IMG/VR virus record: IMGVR_UViG_3300043444_000031
Coordinates: 1 to 21,821 of that record
Strand: one strand, 5' to 3'
Origin: a virus
Length of the DNA stretch: 21,821 bases
The position numbers were made by a program, and so were the translations under genes. A model generated the notes under the pieces. The model was not told the origin of the DNA, ran no database searches, and saw nothing but the letters and a program-made list of their open reading frames with translations. Shown here piece by piece: positions 2,502 to 13,506 of the stretch (position 1 is the first letter of the stretch; the number at the start of each line of letters is the position of its first letter).

Positions 2502-3374
2502 ATGACTGAAGTAGTTCTTGAACAGAAGCCGCAAATGGCGGCAGTATCTGCTTTTGGTAAGCGTAATGCTAACAAAGAAAAGATTGAGCAAGAAGAGGCC
2601 GAGCTTAAAAAGCTATTGAACGGCGAACAAGAAGAGAATAAAGACGAAGGCAACGCAGCTGACGATGCCAACTTAAGCGCCGAAGAGCGTACTTTCAAAA
2701 AGCGATATGGCGATCTTCGCCGTCATTCGCAGCAGCAACAAACTCAACTGCAAAGCCAGATTGATGAATTGAAGGCTCAACTACAGAAGAGCACTGAGAA
2801 TCAAATCAAGCTGCCAAAGAGTGAAGAAGAACTTGCTGAGTGGGCAAAGCAATACCCAGATGTTGCAAAGATTGTTGAGAGCATCGCAATCAAGAAAGCC
2901 CGTGAGCAAGCCGAGGAGATTGACAAGCGATTGAAGTCTCTTGACGAGCGTGAGCTACAGAGTGCTAAAGAGAAAGCTGAGATGGAACTGTTGAAGCTCC
3001 ATCCCGACTTCGACAGCATTCGTGACGATGACAGCTTCCATGATTGGGTTGATGCACAACCTAAGTGGATTCAACAGGCTCTGTACGAGAATGACACTGA
3101 CTATGTTGCAGCAGCACGAGCCATTGACTTGTACAAGGCTGACATGGCTAAGTCAAAGAAAAGCTCAAGCCGCAGTGACAACCGTGATGCTGCTCAAAGC
3201 GTCAGCACTCGTAGTGGTCGTTCTGCACCAGCTGGGGAAGACATCGATGGTGTTTTCTATGAAAGCCAAGTGGACAAGATGACTGCACAACAATATGAAG
3301 CCAACATGGAAGCTATTCAGAAAGCTATCAAGAATGGTAAATTTGTGTACGATTTGAGTGGTAGCGCCCGATAA
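2502..3374 (+). CDS. Capsid assembly scaffolding protein
   Basis: A 290-residue, highly charged, helical protein directly upstream of the capsid module. Scaffolds guide capsid subunits into a prohead and leave before or during packaging. Residues about 24-125 are Glu/Lys/Gln-rich and predicted coiled coil; a conserved-looking segment around residues 165-205 contains LLKLHPDFDSIRDDDSFHDWVDAQP. A Ser/Arg-rich linker follows, and the short C-terminal helix and basic end (KNGKFVYDLSGSAR) are where T7-like scaffolds touch the coat protein. Length is close to T7 gp9 (about 300). AAAGG stands five bases before the ATG. Its leader carries a candidate pseudoknot. Confidence 0.8.
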   Translation: MTEVVLEQKPQMAAVSAFGKRNANKEKIEQEEAELKKLLNGEQEENKDEGNAADDANLSAEERTFKKRYGDLRRHSQQQQTQLQSQIDELKAQLQKSTENQIKLPKSEEELAEWAKQYPDVAKIVESIAIKKAREQAEEIDKRLKSLDERELQSAKEKAEMELLKLHPDFDSIRDDDSFHDWVDAQPKWIQQALYENDTDYVAAARAIDLYKADMAKSKKSSSRSDNRDAAQSVSTRSGRSAPAGEDIDGVFYESQVDKMTAQQYEANMEAIQKAIKNGKFVYDLSGSAR

Positions 3375-3377
3375 GGG

Positions 3378-3405
3378 TTGACAAGCATTAAAATAATGCT
3401 ATAAC
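3378..3405 (+). promoter_or_regulatory. Sigma70-type promoter
   Basis: TTGACA (3378-3383, perfect -35) is followed after 16 bases by TATAAC (3400-3405, five of six -10 bases). Transcription would start near 3411-3413, giving a leader of roughly 72 bases before the HNH gene and running on into the capsid gene. It is the best host-type promoter I found in the window. Confidence 0.7.
3384..3400. promoter_or_regulatory. Palindromic operator candidate in promoter spacer
   Basis: AGCATTA-AAA-TAATGCT is a perfect 7+3+7 inverted repeat. It fills exactly the space between the -35 and -10 boxes and shares one base with the -10. A protein bound here would block polymerase. It lies upstream of the predicted transcript start, so it would act as DNA, not as RNA. 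Confidence 0.5.
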
Positions 3406-3418
3406 TTTATACAGAGCG

Positions 3419-3478
3419 AAGAGGGTAGCTCCCCTGACTGTGCCGATTCACAGCCTAGCTCTTTATTTCTAATCGGAG
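3419..3478 (+). ncRNA. Candidate pseudoknot leader covering the HNH ribosome binding site
   Basis: CTGTG (3438-3442) pairs with CACAG (3449-3453). The whole six-base loop CCGATT (3443-3448) is complementary to AATCGG at 3471-3476. Those last bases overlap the Shine-Dalgarno GGAG (3475-3478), seven bases before the ATG at 3485. An outer helix AAGAG (3419-3423) with CTCTT (3459-3463), extended by TAG/CTA (3426-3428 with 3455-3457), could enclose the hairpin. A competing small hairpin AGGG-TAGCTC-CCCT lies at 3422-3435. If the pseudoknot forms, translation of the HNH gene would be reduced. The fold resembles the layout of preQ1-I/SAM-II-type switches, but the sequence does not match either class as I know them. 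Confidence 0.5.
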
Positions 3479-3484
3479 AAAAAC

Positions 3485-4081
3485 ATGAGTGAAGTGAAAA
3501 CCTGTACTGTTTGTACAGAAACTAAATCGTTATTTGATTTTAGTGTTGATCGTAGTAAATCAAGCAGATATAAATCTTCTTGTAAATCCTGTAACAACAC
3601 TGCTATTAAAAAATGGAGAGAAGATAACAAAGAATATCGACTCTCATATGATAAACAATACCGAACTATCAACAAAGATAAGATTCGTATTAGAAATCAA
3701 AAACGATATACAGGGCTTACGTTAGATCAGAAGTTTGAACAACTTCTTAAGACTGCCCAGAAACGTAAGACAGTAAAGGTTTTTATTTCTGTCGAGCATA
3801 TTAAAGATGCTTGGAAGAAACAAGAAGGTCGATGTGCTTATACAAAGTTGCCGCTTACAAGTGAAGCTCACCAACTTAATACTGTAAGCCTCGACAGGAT
3901 AGATAGTAGCAAAGATTATGTTGAAGGTAATATTCAACTAGTCTGTGTTCCTATCAATGTAATGAAGATGGATTCAACTGAAGAACAGTTTATTCATTTT
4001 TGTTCATTAGTAACGCAAAACAATAAACTATCAGAATCACCTGAAAGTTTGACAGCCCGATATATCTCTTTGGGCACTTAG
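3485..4081 (+). CDS. HNH homing-type endonuclease with N-terminal zinc finger
   Basis: A 198-residue protein. Residues 7-36 hold two CxxC pairs (C7, C10, C33, C36), a likely zinc finger for DNA binding. A basic middle (about 40-100) follows. The C-terminal nuclease core has GRCAYTKLPL (115-124), SLDRIDSS (135-142), YVEGNIQ (145-151) and a final Asn/Lys pair (N158, K161), matching the phage HNH subgroup with S-x-D-R-I-D in the first strand. Such enzymes nick or cut DNA and spread their own genes between phages. GGAG precedes the ATG by seven bases. Base composition is markedly AT-rich (about one third G+C by eye) against about 45% around it, a sign of separate origin. It sits freestanding between scaffold and capsid genes; no intron halves are visible. 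Confidence 0.85.
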   Translation: MSEVKTCTVCTETKSLFDFSVDRSKSSRYKSSCKSCNNTAIKKWREDNKEYRLSYDKQYRTINKDKIRIRNQKRYTGLTLDQKFEQLLKTAQKRKTVKVFISVEHIKDAWKKQEGRCAYTKLPLTSEAHQLNTVSLDRIDSSKDYVEGNIQLVCVPINVMKMDSTEEQFIHFCSLVTQNNKLSESPESLTARYISLGT

Positions 4082-4168: not shown

Positions 4169-5239
4169 ATGGCATTTCCAAAAGCAACGGGTTACGGTAA
4201 CTTACCCAATGGTAATTTTTCACCAGTAATCTATAGCAAACAAGTACAACTCGCTTTCCGTAAGTCTTCGACTGTCGAAGCTATCACTAACAACGACTAT
4301 TTTGGCGAAATCGCCAACATGGGCGACAGTGTAAAAATAATCAAGGAGCCTGAAGTTAGCGTTCAGTCTTATAACCGTGGTACTCAAATCACTGCACAAG
4401 ACTTGAATGACGAAGACTTCACCCTTGTTGTCGATCAAGCGAACTACTACGCTTTCAAGATTGATGACATCGAAGCCGCACATTCACATGTGAACTTCAT
4501 GCAAATGGCTTCTGACCGTGCAGCATATCGCTTGCGTGATCAGTATGACCAAGACGTGTTGGGCTATTTGACAGGCTGGTCACAGTCTGCCAAGCATGCT
4601 AACGCTGACACCGCTCGTACTTCTGCTTCTGGCACTAAAGCCGTTAGCGCCGCTGGCTCTGACGAATTGCTGTCAAGCATGAAGCTCAAGAAGGGCAGCT
4701 TCGGCAACATCACCACTTCTTCTGCTGGTGAGCATTCCATCCCTGTGGCTCCTCGTTTGCCCGGCGCAACCGCATTGCCCACTGCCACTGCATCGCCTTT
4801 GATGGTGATTTCACGCATGAGCCGTCTGTTGGATCAACAGTTCGTTGACTCTCAAGGTCGTTGGTTGGTCGTTGACCCCATCTTCGTTGAGATGTTGAAG
4901 GACGAAGACAGCCGTTTGTTGAACAGCGACTTCGGTGGCTCTGGTTTGCAAAACGGTTTGGTGATCAACAACTTGCACGGCTTCCGTGTGTATGTGTCTA
5001 ACAACCTGCCCAAGATCGGTGGCGGCGCTGGTACTTCTGGTACAGCTAACCAAAACACTGACTACGGCATCATCGTTGCTGGTCACGACTCTGCTGTGGC
5101 AACTGCTCAGCAAATCACCAAAACTGAAACCTACCGTGACCCTGACAGCTTCGCTGACATCGTCCGTGGTATGCACCTGTATGGTCGCAAGATCCTTCGT
5201 CCTGAAGGCATCGTGACTGCTAAGTACAACGCAGCCTAA
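4169..5239 (+). CDS. Major capsid protein
   Basis: A 356-residue protein that would form the HK97-fold shell. It starts MAFPKATGYGNLPNG and has the usual layout of podovirus coat proteins: an N-terminal arm; an extended E-loop-like region with strands (VKIIKEPEVSVQSYNRG, about 55-72); a helix-rich spine (SDRAAYRLRDQYDQDVLGYL, 112-131); an A-domain region including SRLLDQQFVDSQGRWLVVDP; and a last strand/helix segment ending in GRKILRPEGIVTAKY. It follows the scaffold, and its codon use looks biased to frequent codons (CGT, AAC, GAC, GGT), as expected for the most abundant virion protein. AGGAG lies six to seven bases before the ATG. Its AT-rich leader (4089-4168) has no convincing promoter, so it is probably read from the promoter at 3378 through the HNH gene. 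Confidence 0.88.
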   Translation: MAFPKATGYGNLPNGNFSPVIYSKQVQLAFRKSSTVEAITNNDYFGEIANMGDSVKIIKEPEVSVQSYNRGTQITAQDLNDEDFTLVVDQANYYAFKIDDIEAAHSHVNFMQMASDRAAYRLRDQYDQDVLGYLTGWSQSAKHANADTARTSASGTKAVSAAGSDELLSSMKLKKGSFGNITTSSAGEHSIPVAPRLPGATALPTATASPLMVISRMSRLLDQQFVDSQGRWLVVDPIFVEMLKDEDSRLLNSDFGGSGLQNGLVINNLHGFRVYVSNNLPKIGGGAGTSGTANQNTDYGIIVAGHDSAVATAQQITKTETYRDPDSFADIVRGMHLYGRKILRPEGIVTAKYNAA

Positions 5240-10320: not shown

Positions 10321-13300
10321 ATGACGGGCTACGTTCGTGTAGATACAAGTAATAACATTGCTGACGGAAACGTCATCAACGCCGCAGACTTAGACAATGA
10401 GTTTGACGGCGTACAAGCTGCGTTTAATGCCTCTACTGGTCACACACATGGTGGCGGCGCAGGTGAGGGTGCTCCAATTACAGCCATTGGTCCTGCACAA
10501 GATGTTACAGTTTCATCAACGCTGATGGCTCCTAAGACTACTAACACTGTAGATGTTGGTAGCTCATCTCTTAAATTCAAAGATCTGTACATTGCTGGTA
10601 CAGCATATCTCCCAACTGTTTCTTCTACCACTGTCAACGCTACAACTGTTGACACTACCAACATTGAAGTTACAAACATCAAAGCTAAAGATGGCACTTC
10701 TGCTGGTTCTATTGCAGACAGCACAGGTGTTGTTACCTTGGCAAGTGCTGTACTAACTACAGCAGATATTAATGGTGGTACTTTAGATAATGTCACTATC
10801 GGTGGTAGTACAGCTGCTGCTGCTACATTCACCACTGTTGTTGGTACAGATGCCACAGACTCTACATCCACCACCACTGGCGCATTCAAAACAGCAGGTG
10901 GTTTAGGTGTTGCTAAAGCTCTTTGGGTTGGTGGTCTTGTTAACGTTGCTGGTGCAACAACTCTGCAAGGCACTTTAACAGGCTCAGACGCTACAGATTC
11001 TTCTTCATCTACCACTGGTGCATTTAAAACAGCTGGTGGTTTAGGTGTTGCTAAAAAGTTGTTTGTTGGTTTAGACGCTAACATTTATGGAGTCACCGTA
11101 GGCCGAGGCGCTGGCGCAGTATCTACAAACACCGCTGTTGGTGCTAGTGCTTTGGCGGCTAATACTACAGGTGCGTTTAATACTGCTGGTGGCGCAAACG
11201 CCCTTGCCTCAAATACATCTGGTGTCGCCTCTACCGCTTTTGGCTATAACGCACTAACGCTTTCCACAGGTGATGCGAACAACGCTTTTGGTCGTCTTGC
11301 AATGCCAGCAACAACAACTGGCACAAATAACGCAGCATTTGGAAATAATACGCTGCAAGCAAACACCACTGGTTCATACAATACCGCACTTGGTGCAAAT
11401 GCCCTTAATGCCAACACCACAGCAAGCAACAGCACTGCTGTGGGTTATCAGGCGGGGTATGCCAATACCACTGGTGAATACGGAATGTTCGTGGGCTACC
11501 GTGCTGGCTACTCAAACACGACTGGCGCAAACAACACTGCACTTGGTTCAGCCGCTCTTGCATCAAACACCACAGCATCAGGCAACACTGCTGTAGGCTA
11601 TCAAGCGGCATACAACAACACCACAGGCGACTATTTCACTGCCGTTGGCTTTGAGGCAGGTTTGTCTACAACTACTGCCACACGTGTCACTGCAATTGGC
11701 TCTCAAGCGCTTCGTTCAAACACAACTGGTCGCAACACGGCTTTGGGTTGGGCGGCTTTGTACACCAACACTACTGGCACTTTAAACACGGCTCTTGGTG
11801 ACGGCGCTCTTTATTCTGCAACTACTGCAGACGGAAACACAGCCGTTGGCTACGGCCCTCTCTTGCTTAACACTACGGGGGCGTCAAACACAGCCGTTGG
11901 AACAAGCGCACTTCGCTCCAACACCACAGGCGCCAATAACACAGCCGTTGGTTTTCAATCTCTTTACAGCCAAACCTCGCCGACCACAGGTCGCAATACT
12001 GCTCTTGGTTATCAAGCTGCTTACAGCCTGACAACCGCCGACAGAAACACGGCTATCGGCACATTTGCTCTTCAAGCGTTTACTACTGGCTATAACAACG
12101 TTGCGGTTGGTGAACAGGCCATGTATGGCGGCGCAAGCGCCTCTGGAAACGATAACGTAGCTGTCGGTAAGAGCGCAGGCTCTTCCATGTCTTCAGGTGC
12201 GTTCAACACCATTGTTGGTTCTAATGCGCTTGCATCTAATACCACAGCGCAAGGAAATACTGTGGTGGGTTATCAGGCGGCGTACACAAACATCACGGGC
12301 AGTTTTATTGATGTGTTCGGTAGGGATGCCGCATACAACAGCACCGCAAACGGCATAACGGCCTTTGGTCGTGCGGTGCTATACGCAAACACCAGCGGCA
12401 CAGAAAACACAGCAGTCGGCACTTCGTATGCCACTTACGCCGCATTGCGTTTCAATACCACTGGTTCGTACAACGTGGCTATGGGTGGTGGCGCACTTGC
12501 AAGCAACACCACAGCAAACGCCAACACAGCCGTGGGCTATCAGGCGCTTTACTCAAACACCACAGGTGTAGGCAACACTGCGGTTGGGTATCAGGCGGGA
12601 TATGCAAACACAACGCAGAGTCGAGCCACTTGTATTGGATTTTTGGCTGGAGTTGCTGCAACTGGAGAGTCAAACACTTTGATTGGAGCGTATGCTGGCT
12701 ACAACATTACAACTGGTGAAAGTAACACCTGCGTTGGTGGTCGAAGTGCGCTTGGAAACAATGAAGGCGCAGGGTTTAGCCTCACCACTGGTACATATAA
12801 CAACTTCTTTGGTGGAGCTGCTGGAGGATACGTTACTACGGGTTCTAAAAACACCATTCTTGGTAACTATGACGGCAACCAAGGCGGCTTAGACATTCGC
12901 ACAGCAAGCAACTACATAGTGCTGTCTGATGGGGATGGGAATCCACAGATTTATAACAATGCGGTAACTACCTTTTTTGGATTGGGTGGAACAGCGGCAA
13001 CATACACTGGAACGATTGAATTAAAAGGCGCAGATGCTAACAACAGGGGTGCTTATGTGTACTTCTCACAAAATGGTTCACAGGTTGGGTATGTTGGTGT
13101 TAAACGAGCAATCCAAGGCGGTTCCGCTGGAACTTCTGGTTTTATGTACATCTCCAATGATGGTAATTATGGCGTTTACTTGAACGGTACAACAGCAACA
13201 TCATGGAGTTCTGCATCTGACGAACGCTTAAAAGAGAACCTTGTTGAAATCACAGATGGCGCAAATAAAGTTGCATCGCTTCGTGCTGTCATTGGCAACT

Positions 13301-13506
13301 GGAAAGCAGATGCAGACAAAACTCGCAAGCCATTCCTGATTGCTCAGGATGTTCAAGCGGTATTGCCAGAAGCGGTAAGCCAATCTGTTCAAAGCAAAGA
13401 TGACCCGACTGAATACCTTGGTGTGTCCTACACCGAAGTCATCCCACTTCTGGTTGCAGCAATCAAAGAACTCAAAGCAGAAATTGATTTATTAAAAGGA
13501 AACTAA
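10321..13506 (+). CDS. Tail fibre with YadA-head-like repeats and S74 self-cleaving chaperone
   Basis: A 1061-residue trimeric receptor-binding fibre. Residues 1-60 form an attachment region rich in Asp/Asn. Residues 95-255 are a shaft with LYIAGTAYLP and two related 31-residue blocks (175-205 and 221-251, TTGAFKTAGGLGVAK). Residues about 258-880 hold some 34 repeats of NTAVGYQAL-type sequence spaced 14-20 residues apart, the left-handed beta-roll of YadA heads. Residues 880-960 are a beta tip with YVYFSQNG. The C-terminus is an intramolecular chaperone of the endosialidase type (Peptidase S74): SDERLKENL with Ser966 and Lys971 spaced as in the known catalytic dyad, FLIAQDVQAVLPEAV, then a final coiled coil. 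Self-cleavage before Ser966 would release 96 residues. AAGGA precedes the ATG by six bases. Confidence 0.9.
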   Translation: MTGYVRVDTSNNIADGNVINAADLDNEFDGVQAAFNASTGHTHGGGAGEGAPITAIGPAQDVTVSSTLMAPKTTNTVDVGSSSLKFKDLYIAGTAYLPTVSSTTVNATTVDTTNIEVTNIKAKDGTSAGSIADSTGVVTLASAVLTTADINGGTLDNVTIGGSTAAAATFTTVVGTDATDSTSTTTGAFKTAGGLGVAKALWVGGLVNVAGATTLQGTLTGSDATDSSSSTTGAFKTAGGLGVAKKLFVGLDANIYGVTVGRGAGAVSTNTAVGASALAANTTGAFNTAGGANALASNTSGVASTAFGYNALTLSTGDANNAFGRLAMPATTTGTNNAAFGNNTLQANTTGSYNTALGANALNANTTASNSTAVGYQAGYANTTGEYGMFVGYRAGYSNTTGANNTALGSAALASNTTASGNTAVGYQAAYNNTTGDYFTAVGFEAGLSTTTATRVTAIGSQALRSNTTGRNTALGWAALYTNTTGTLNTALGDGALYSATTADGNTAVGYGPLLLNTTGASNTAVGTSALRSNTTGANNTAVGFQSLYSQTSPTTGRNTALGYQAAYSLTTADRNTAIGTFALQAFTTGYNNVAVGEQAMYGGASASGNDNVAVGKSAGSSMSSGAFNTIVGSNALASNTTAQGNTVVGYQAAYTNITGSFIDVFGRDAAYNSTANGITAFGRAVLYANTSGTENTAVGTSYATYAALRFNTTGSYNVAMGGGALASNTTANANTAVGYQALYSNTTGVGNTAVGYQAGYANTTQSRATCIGFLAGVAATGESNTLIGAYAGYNITTGESNTCVGGRSALGNNEGAGFSLTTGTYNNFFGGAAGGYVTTGSKNTILGNYDGNQGGLDIRTASNYIVLSDGDGNPQIYNNAVTTFFGLGGTAATYTGTIELKGADANNRGAYVYFSQNGSQVGYVGVKRAIQGGSAGTSGFMYISNDGNYGVYLNGTTATSWSSASDERLKENLVEITDGANKVASLRAVIGNWKADADKTRKPFLIAQDVQAVLPEAVSQSVQSKDDPTEYLGVSYTEVIPLLVAAIKELKAEIDLLKGN
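10843..11073 (+). repeat. Direct repeat in the fibre shaft
   Basis: Two coding blocks 138 bases apart (starting near 10843 and 10981) are very similar in DNA, sharing among other stretches the run for GGLGVAK. They mark a recent local duplication in the shaft. Confidence 0.6.
11096..12880 (+). repeat. About 34 YadA-head-like coding repeats
   Basis: In-frame units of about 45-60 bases each encode (N)TA(V/L)GxxAL followed by xxNTTGxx. The DNA copies are varied and not identical, so this is a protein-level repeat, not a tandem array of exact units. By eye the region is somewhat richer in G+C than the genes before it. Confidence 0.85.

Follow-up and report, generated by a model that had tools for sequence, protein, structure and literature searches.

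The HNH gene and its leader in the window

The stretch of 21,821 nt analysed here, referred to as the window, comes from an IMG/VR-type virus record and is part of the genome of an HMO-2011-type podophage. It contains an HNH gene, flanked by a scaffold-like gene (2502-3374) on one side and by the gene for the major capsid protein (4169-5239) on the other. The HNH protein matches PHROG 1035, endonuclease VII, with E=4e-28, and is 57% identical to the HNH protein of MW202701, the nearest annotated relative, in which the HNH gene is found at the same position. The region upstream of the start codon contains a promoter followed by a predicted RNA structure with three helices (P1 to P3), three junction segments and a pseudoknot at the Shine-Dalgarno (SD) sequence. 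The features are the following.

3378 to 3405, + strand: sigma70-type promoter (TTGACA at 3378-3383, a 16-nt spacer, TATAAC at 3400-3405)
3413 to 3417, + strand: 5' strand of P1, AGAGC, predicted from covariation to pair with GCUCU at 3458-3462
3418 to 3422, + strand: J1/2 with the conserved GAA, seen in every true copy, also in those obtained independently of the search pattern
3423 to 3433, + strand: P2 hairpin, GGG-UAGCU-CCC, with two-sided changes in relatives; the weakest helix
3434 to 3436, + strand: J2/3, CUG, conserved in the alignments
3437 to 3454, + strand: P3 hairpin (stem 3438-3442/3449-3453, loop CCGAUU 3443-3448), with strong two-sided covariation
3455 to 3457, + strand: J3/1, CUA, conserved in the alignments
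3458 to 3462, + strand: 3' strand of P1, GCUCU, partner of 3413-3417
3471 to 3476, + strand: 3' strand of the pseudoknot, AAUCGG, complementary to the P3 loop
3475 to 3478, + strand: SD sequence GGAG, half of it within the pseudoknot helix, an overlap that recurs in relatives
3485 to 4081, + strand: HNH gene, encoding an HNH/endonuclease VII-like homing-type endonuclease of 198 aa
4010 to 4081, + strand: 3'-terminal part of the HNH ORF, which by blastn (window and L237 against L253 and L312) has its homologue in the leader of the capsid gene of relatives lacking HNH

A preliminary description of this leader had reported the hairpin CTGTG (3438-3442)-CCGATT (3443-3448)-CACAG (3449-3453), the complementarity of all six loop bases to AATCGG (3471-3476), 22 bases 3' of the loop, and the overlap of that segment with GGAG (3475-3478), all of which are present as described; the gap between the SD sequence and the ATG, given there as seven bases, is of six (GGAG ends at 3478 and the ATG is at 3485). 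The sigma70 promoter that it placed just before the structure is also found, with a predicted transcript start at ca. 3412, at the base of P1. This promoter is conserved in relatives with and without an HNH gene at the capsid locus, and it is absent from the list produced by an automated promoter scan because the scan demands a T at the last base of the -10 element. The P3 arm and the pseudoknot had been recognised, but P1 and P2, and hence the three-way junction, had been missed. The order of the fold, as derived from the comparison of the window with MW202701, is P1, J1/2 (GAA), P2, J2/3 (CUG), P3, J3/1 (CUA) and the pseudoknot strand at the SD sequence; MW202701 has a different P3, whose loop CCTACT is the exact complement of its own SD segment, AGTAGG.

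Elsewhere in the window, a tail-fibre-like ORF of 1061 aa (10321-13506) bears many NTTG-type repeats, and its C-terminus is similar, by eye, to an intramolecular chaperone domain.

Covariation of the junction and the pseudoknot

Taken by itself, the loop match in the window is weak evidence, since a run of at least six Watson-Crick pairs also arises in 1.7% of the downstream stretches after shuffling, and the folding energy alone is uninformative (z-score of -0.48 for the window leader). With homologues, the predicted pairing between loop and SD segment is far beyond chance. A set of 92 unique candidates was collected blind to the pseudoknot, in 86 of which P3 has three pairs or more and a loop of 5-9 nt. 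At least six contiguous Watson-Crick pairs between the loop and the downstream segment were found in 73 of the 86 leaders, against 2.3% when each loop was matched with downstream segments from other leaders, and at least five pairs in 82 of the 86, against 15.2% for the mismatched partners. This set includes 34 loop sequences, across which the pseudoknot strand lies on or beside the SD sequence; no clear pseudoknot was seen in the loop-pairing test for L346, L353 and L378. Covariation of the loop with the SD segment in homologous leaders, the absence of which the preliminary description had named beforehand as one result that would refute its proposal, was observed (CCGATT/AATCGG, CCTACT/AGTAGG, CTAGTC/GACTAG, CCTTAT/ATAAGG and 30 more loops).

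Covariation along the whole structure was analysed in 38 distinct condensed leaders, comprising the junction and the pseudoknot strand with the spacer omitted. Paired bases occupy 92.2% of the cells and two-sided changes are present in 16 of the 21 pairs, with a covariation score of 0.45 as compared with 0.17 for shuffled alignments, none of 500 shuffles reaching the observed value, and with a drop to 0.03-0.12 when the registers are slid. The pseudoknot helix of this set (97.4% of cells paired, five of the six pairs changed on both sides) is not independent evidence, as P1 to P3 are, because the set had been filtered for the presence of the pseudoknot. P3 is paired in 95-97% of the cells in the alignments, and P1 changes among relatives from AGAGC/GCUCU to AGGC/GCCU, GGGC/GCCC and GAC/GUC. 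In 24 model-fitted copies, an alignment fitted to the structure and including weak copies, the covariation of P1 to P3 was again reached by none of 500 shuffles. The predicted fold and its overlap with the SD sequence are well supported by these comparisons.

The search patterns imposed GCGAA, CTG and CTAGC, so that part of the invariance of the core is due to ascertainment. Copies obtained independently of these patterns, namely the capsid-locus variants L278 and L287, the model hits in two contigs and the BLAST-found copy of phage EP_H11, retain GAA, CUG and CUA while their P1 pairs vary (G-C to A-U, C-G to U-G). The putative junction is therefore conserved beyond ascertainment, on this smaller sample.

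Distribution of the RNA and insertion at the capsid locus

A pattern scan of viral contigs that made no requirement for the pseudoknot rendered 55 contigs, all but three of them with real copies, and the set was enlarged by scans with other P1 types, by a survey of the capsid locus and by BLAST. A whole-record search with a covariance model restricted to the junction detected six copies in each of two phage contigs and one in the Escherichia coli phage isolate EP_H11; every inspected copy found by the model shows five to seven matching pairs between loop and SD sequence, nearly all precede an endonuclease gene, and copies within one genome differ in loop sequence. In EP_H11 (OP688485.1 22498-23482, L313), the RNA (loop CCGCTT/AAGCGG) precedes an ORF of 303 aa that is annotated as hypothetical and has a weak GIY-YIG match (Pfam E=0.026). 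Several other candidates were discarded. The only match of the AGAGC-type pattern in 84,980 species genomes (L116) has no pseudoknot and is taken as a coincidence, as are the approximately 49 new loci rendered by a looser viral pattern (GAGCGAA...TGA...CTAGCTC), with the exception of L102, which is real. A model hit in T4 (E=0.015) lies antisense in tk.4/vs, with no endonuclease, and is attributed to chance; a partial BLAST match in an Edwardsiella phage lacks the motif; and the covariance-model search of T5, Aeh1 and HMO-2011 detected no copy.

The genes located 3' of the RNA include those for nucleases of the HNH (HNH_3, endonuclease VII, HNH repeat), GIY-YIG and PD-(D/E)XK (PDDEXK_5, E=6.5e-17) families, several of the HNH-like ORFs having no Pfam match and being identified through PHROGs or by eye. 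The ORFs downstream of three copies (L347 2064-2109, L386 12549-12591 and L377 187-237) are short or of unknown type, with no endonuclease match, and these copies may represent lost endonucleases or co-option. Among 47 other RNA copies, 16 have a -10-like element 5-15 nt upstream, as compared with 6.9 in shuffles, and others closely follow an upstream stop codon. Since the RNA is not always promoter-proximal, it appears to be a self-contained module.

At the capsid locus, 15 of 75 informative loci carry both the RNA and the HNH gene, 59 carry neither, none carries the RNA alone and one, L247, carries the HNH gene alone, on a contig too short to include the leader. The possibility that the RNA serves the capsid gene as its leader, and not the HNH gene, was considered and rejected because the HNH-less relatives lack it. 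The HNH-bearing L237 and the HNH-less L253 are identical at 74 of 74 positions up to TATAACTTTAA of the capsid promoter, after which the RNA begins in L237, so that the left edge of the insertion lies directly before the RNA. The last HNH codons (VTQNNKLSESPES...) share homology with the ancestral capsid leader, which locates the right edge inside the HNH ORF. Because identity stops before the RNA and homology resumes within the ORF, the RNA and most of the HNH ORF are, as judged from these edges, a single inserted unit that lies directly behind the predicted start of the capsid-gene transcript. It is the homologue of the ancestral leader that encodes the C-terminal end of the HNH protein, the stop region of the cassette having come from the recipient phage. 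The HNH-less L244, L248, L253 and L312 share a conserved capsid-gene leader of about 280 nt, located 290 bases before the capsid gene, which opens with a hairpin at the promoter start (e.g. AGCAGGACTAGGTATCTAGTCTTGCT) and is possibly another structured leader.

Proposed translational gating and alternative readings

We consider, with a probability of roughly three in four, that these RNAs are a class of cis-acting leaders carried by homing-endonuclease cassettes, which gate translation of the endonuclease by hiding its SD sequence. The three-way junction, closed by the pseudoknot in which the P3 loop pairs with the SD segment, would form the 5' part of the cassettes; the folded RNA would compete with the ribosome for the SD sequence, and translation of the endonuclease would be kept low or conditional even behind the capsid-gene promoter, as in the window. 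We infer that the closed form would be repressive and its opening regulated. The energies of the pseudoknot duplexes, -4.0 to -6.4 kcal/mol, are close to that of SD:anti-SD pairing (-6.6), so that the pseudoknot probably acts less as a lock than as a competitor that can be tuned, and occlusion may be partial. Constitutive silencing would need only a plain hairpin; the conservation of the junction (GAA, CUG, CUA) suggests more than occlusion, and the junction could serve either as a tertiary scaffold or for binding.

The strategy of hiding the SD sequence has precedent, since the T4-type homing endonucleases I-TevI, I-TevII, I-TevIII, segB and Aeh1 mobE have SD-sequestering leader structures that limit expression (PMC2988022). 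Like them, the window RNA is a cis RNA directly upstream of a homing-type endonuclease gene, assigned in the window by its PHROG match, and its structure would pair with the SD sequence, here as indicated by the covariation of loop and SD segment. However, the T4-type leaders are gene-specific hairpins (PMC2988022), whereas here one conserved pseudoknotted three-way junction is common to several nuclease families, an arrangement with no precedent in Rfam 15 or in the literature searched, which covered few subscription journals. Moreover, late transcripts of the T4-type genes miss part of the structure owing to the position of a late promoter, whereas the window has, instead of a simple hairpin bypassed by an internal late promoter, a pseudoknotted three-way junction with the predicted transcript start before P1.

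At the gathering threshold, the search against the Rfam families (riboswitches, ribozymes, HEARO and others) rendered no match in the window and none at the motif in 20 relatives, and the sub-threshold hits at permissive settings were noise that pointed to no family, in agreement with the earlier statement that the structure fits no recognised riboswitch class. SAM-II, preQ1-I and -II, and SAM/SAH riboswitches have SD-sequestering pseudoknots, and the architecture described here resembles theirs in its predicted loop-to-SD pseudoknot and its apparently conserved unpaired core. It could tentatively be the case, as a special form of the gating leader, that the RNA is a true riboswitch, in which a small molecule or ion that signals the state of the infection would bind to the junction and so close or open the SD pseudoknot; GAA, CUG and CUA are constant while helices, loops and pseudoknot vary freely, also in copies found by the model, BLAST or the locus survey. 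Nevertheless, part of that constancy was imposed by the search patterns, there is no candidate ligand, the junction differs from those of the known riboswitches and matches none in Rfam, and the genes controlled would be selfish nucleases rather than metabolic genes. It is more doubtful that no ligand-sensing RNA class dedicated to selfish genes would precede this one, in which a shared aptamer junction would let homing endonucleases of unrelated catalytic families respond to a single signal of the infection state in timing their translation.

The conserved unpaired residues of the junction would equally suit a bound protein (the endonuclease itself, or an RNA-binding protein of host or phage) that represses translation, and translational repressors binding leader pseudoknots exist, but we regard this as unlikely: self-repression is hard to reconcile with HNH, GIY-YIG and PD-(D/E)XK nucleases of unrelated fold sharing the RNA, and the same host protein would be needed in the hosts of very different phages. 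A three-way junction with a loop-to-3' pseudoknot is also the topology of exonuclease-resistant RNAs and ribozymes, including the flaviviral exonuclease-resistant RNA, in which the pseudoknot joins a hairpin loop to downstream sequence. Together with the location of the RNA where transcription is predicted to begin in the window, this would fit an element acting mainly in stability or processing, either 5' exonuclease-resistant or self-cleaving, with the SD overlap being incidental. Such a role is improbable, however, since the pseudoknot strand keeps to the SD sequence across so many different loops, which stability alone would not need. The flaviviral RNA differs in its conserved bases, and the RNA described here belongs to a bacterial phage context and overlaps the SD sequence; a hammerhead core (CUGAUGA...GAAA) is not present, GAA, CUG and CUA being in another cyclic order, and no ribozyme family matches at the motif. 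The element lies at the left border of the insertion, which could also suggest that it acts as DNA, for example as an endonuclease target or a mobility signal, but this is very improbable given the G-U pairs and compensatory changes, the different loops of copies in one genome, and the link to the SD sequence, which requires an RNA.

Homing endonucleases, gene-drive-like enzymes, have mostly been studied gene by gene, and what is known of their control at translation comes mainly from individual T4-type hairpins. From the presence of the same RNA before unrelated homing endonucleases in many phages, selfish phage genes would seem to share a common off-switch. One RNA common to HNH, GIY-YIG and PD-(D/E)XK nucleases would mean that control modules travel with selfish genes and are swapped among them, and it would imply a general selection on the timing or damping of nucleases. 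A defined RNA of 50 nt, with a copy in EP_H11 and clear mutants, offers a handle on the signal, if any, that controls the expression of selfish genes, and the RNA may mark unannotated homing endonucleases in phage metagenomes.

Two further loci with RNA-bearing HNH genes deserve mention. Near the one in a viral contig of 78 kb, Rfam tmRNA matches (RF04321, RF01849) lie on the - strand (L328 605-893), a locus at which ARAGORN detected no tmRNA. At L065 8668-9931 (L330 1501-2712), a free-standing HNH gene with the RNA is located directly upstream of the gene for the large terminase subunit, which a group I intron (Rfam RF00028) interrupts, an arrangement that suggests collaborative homing.
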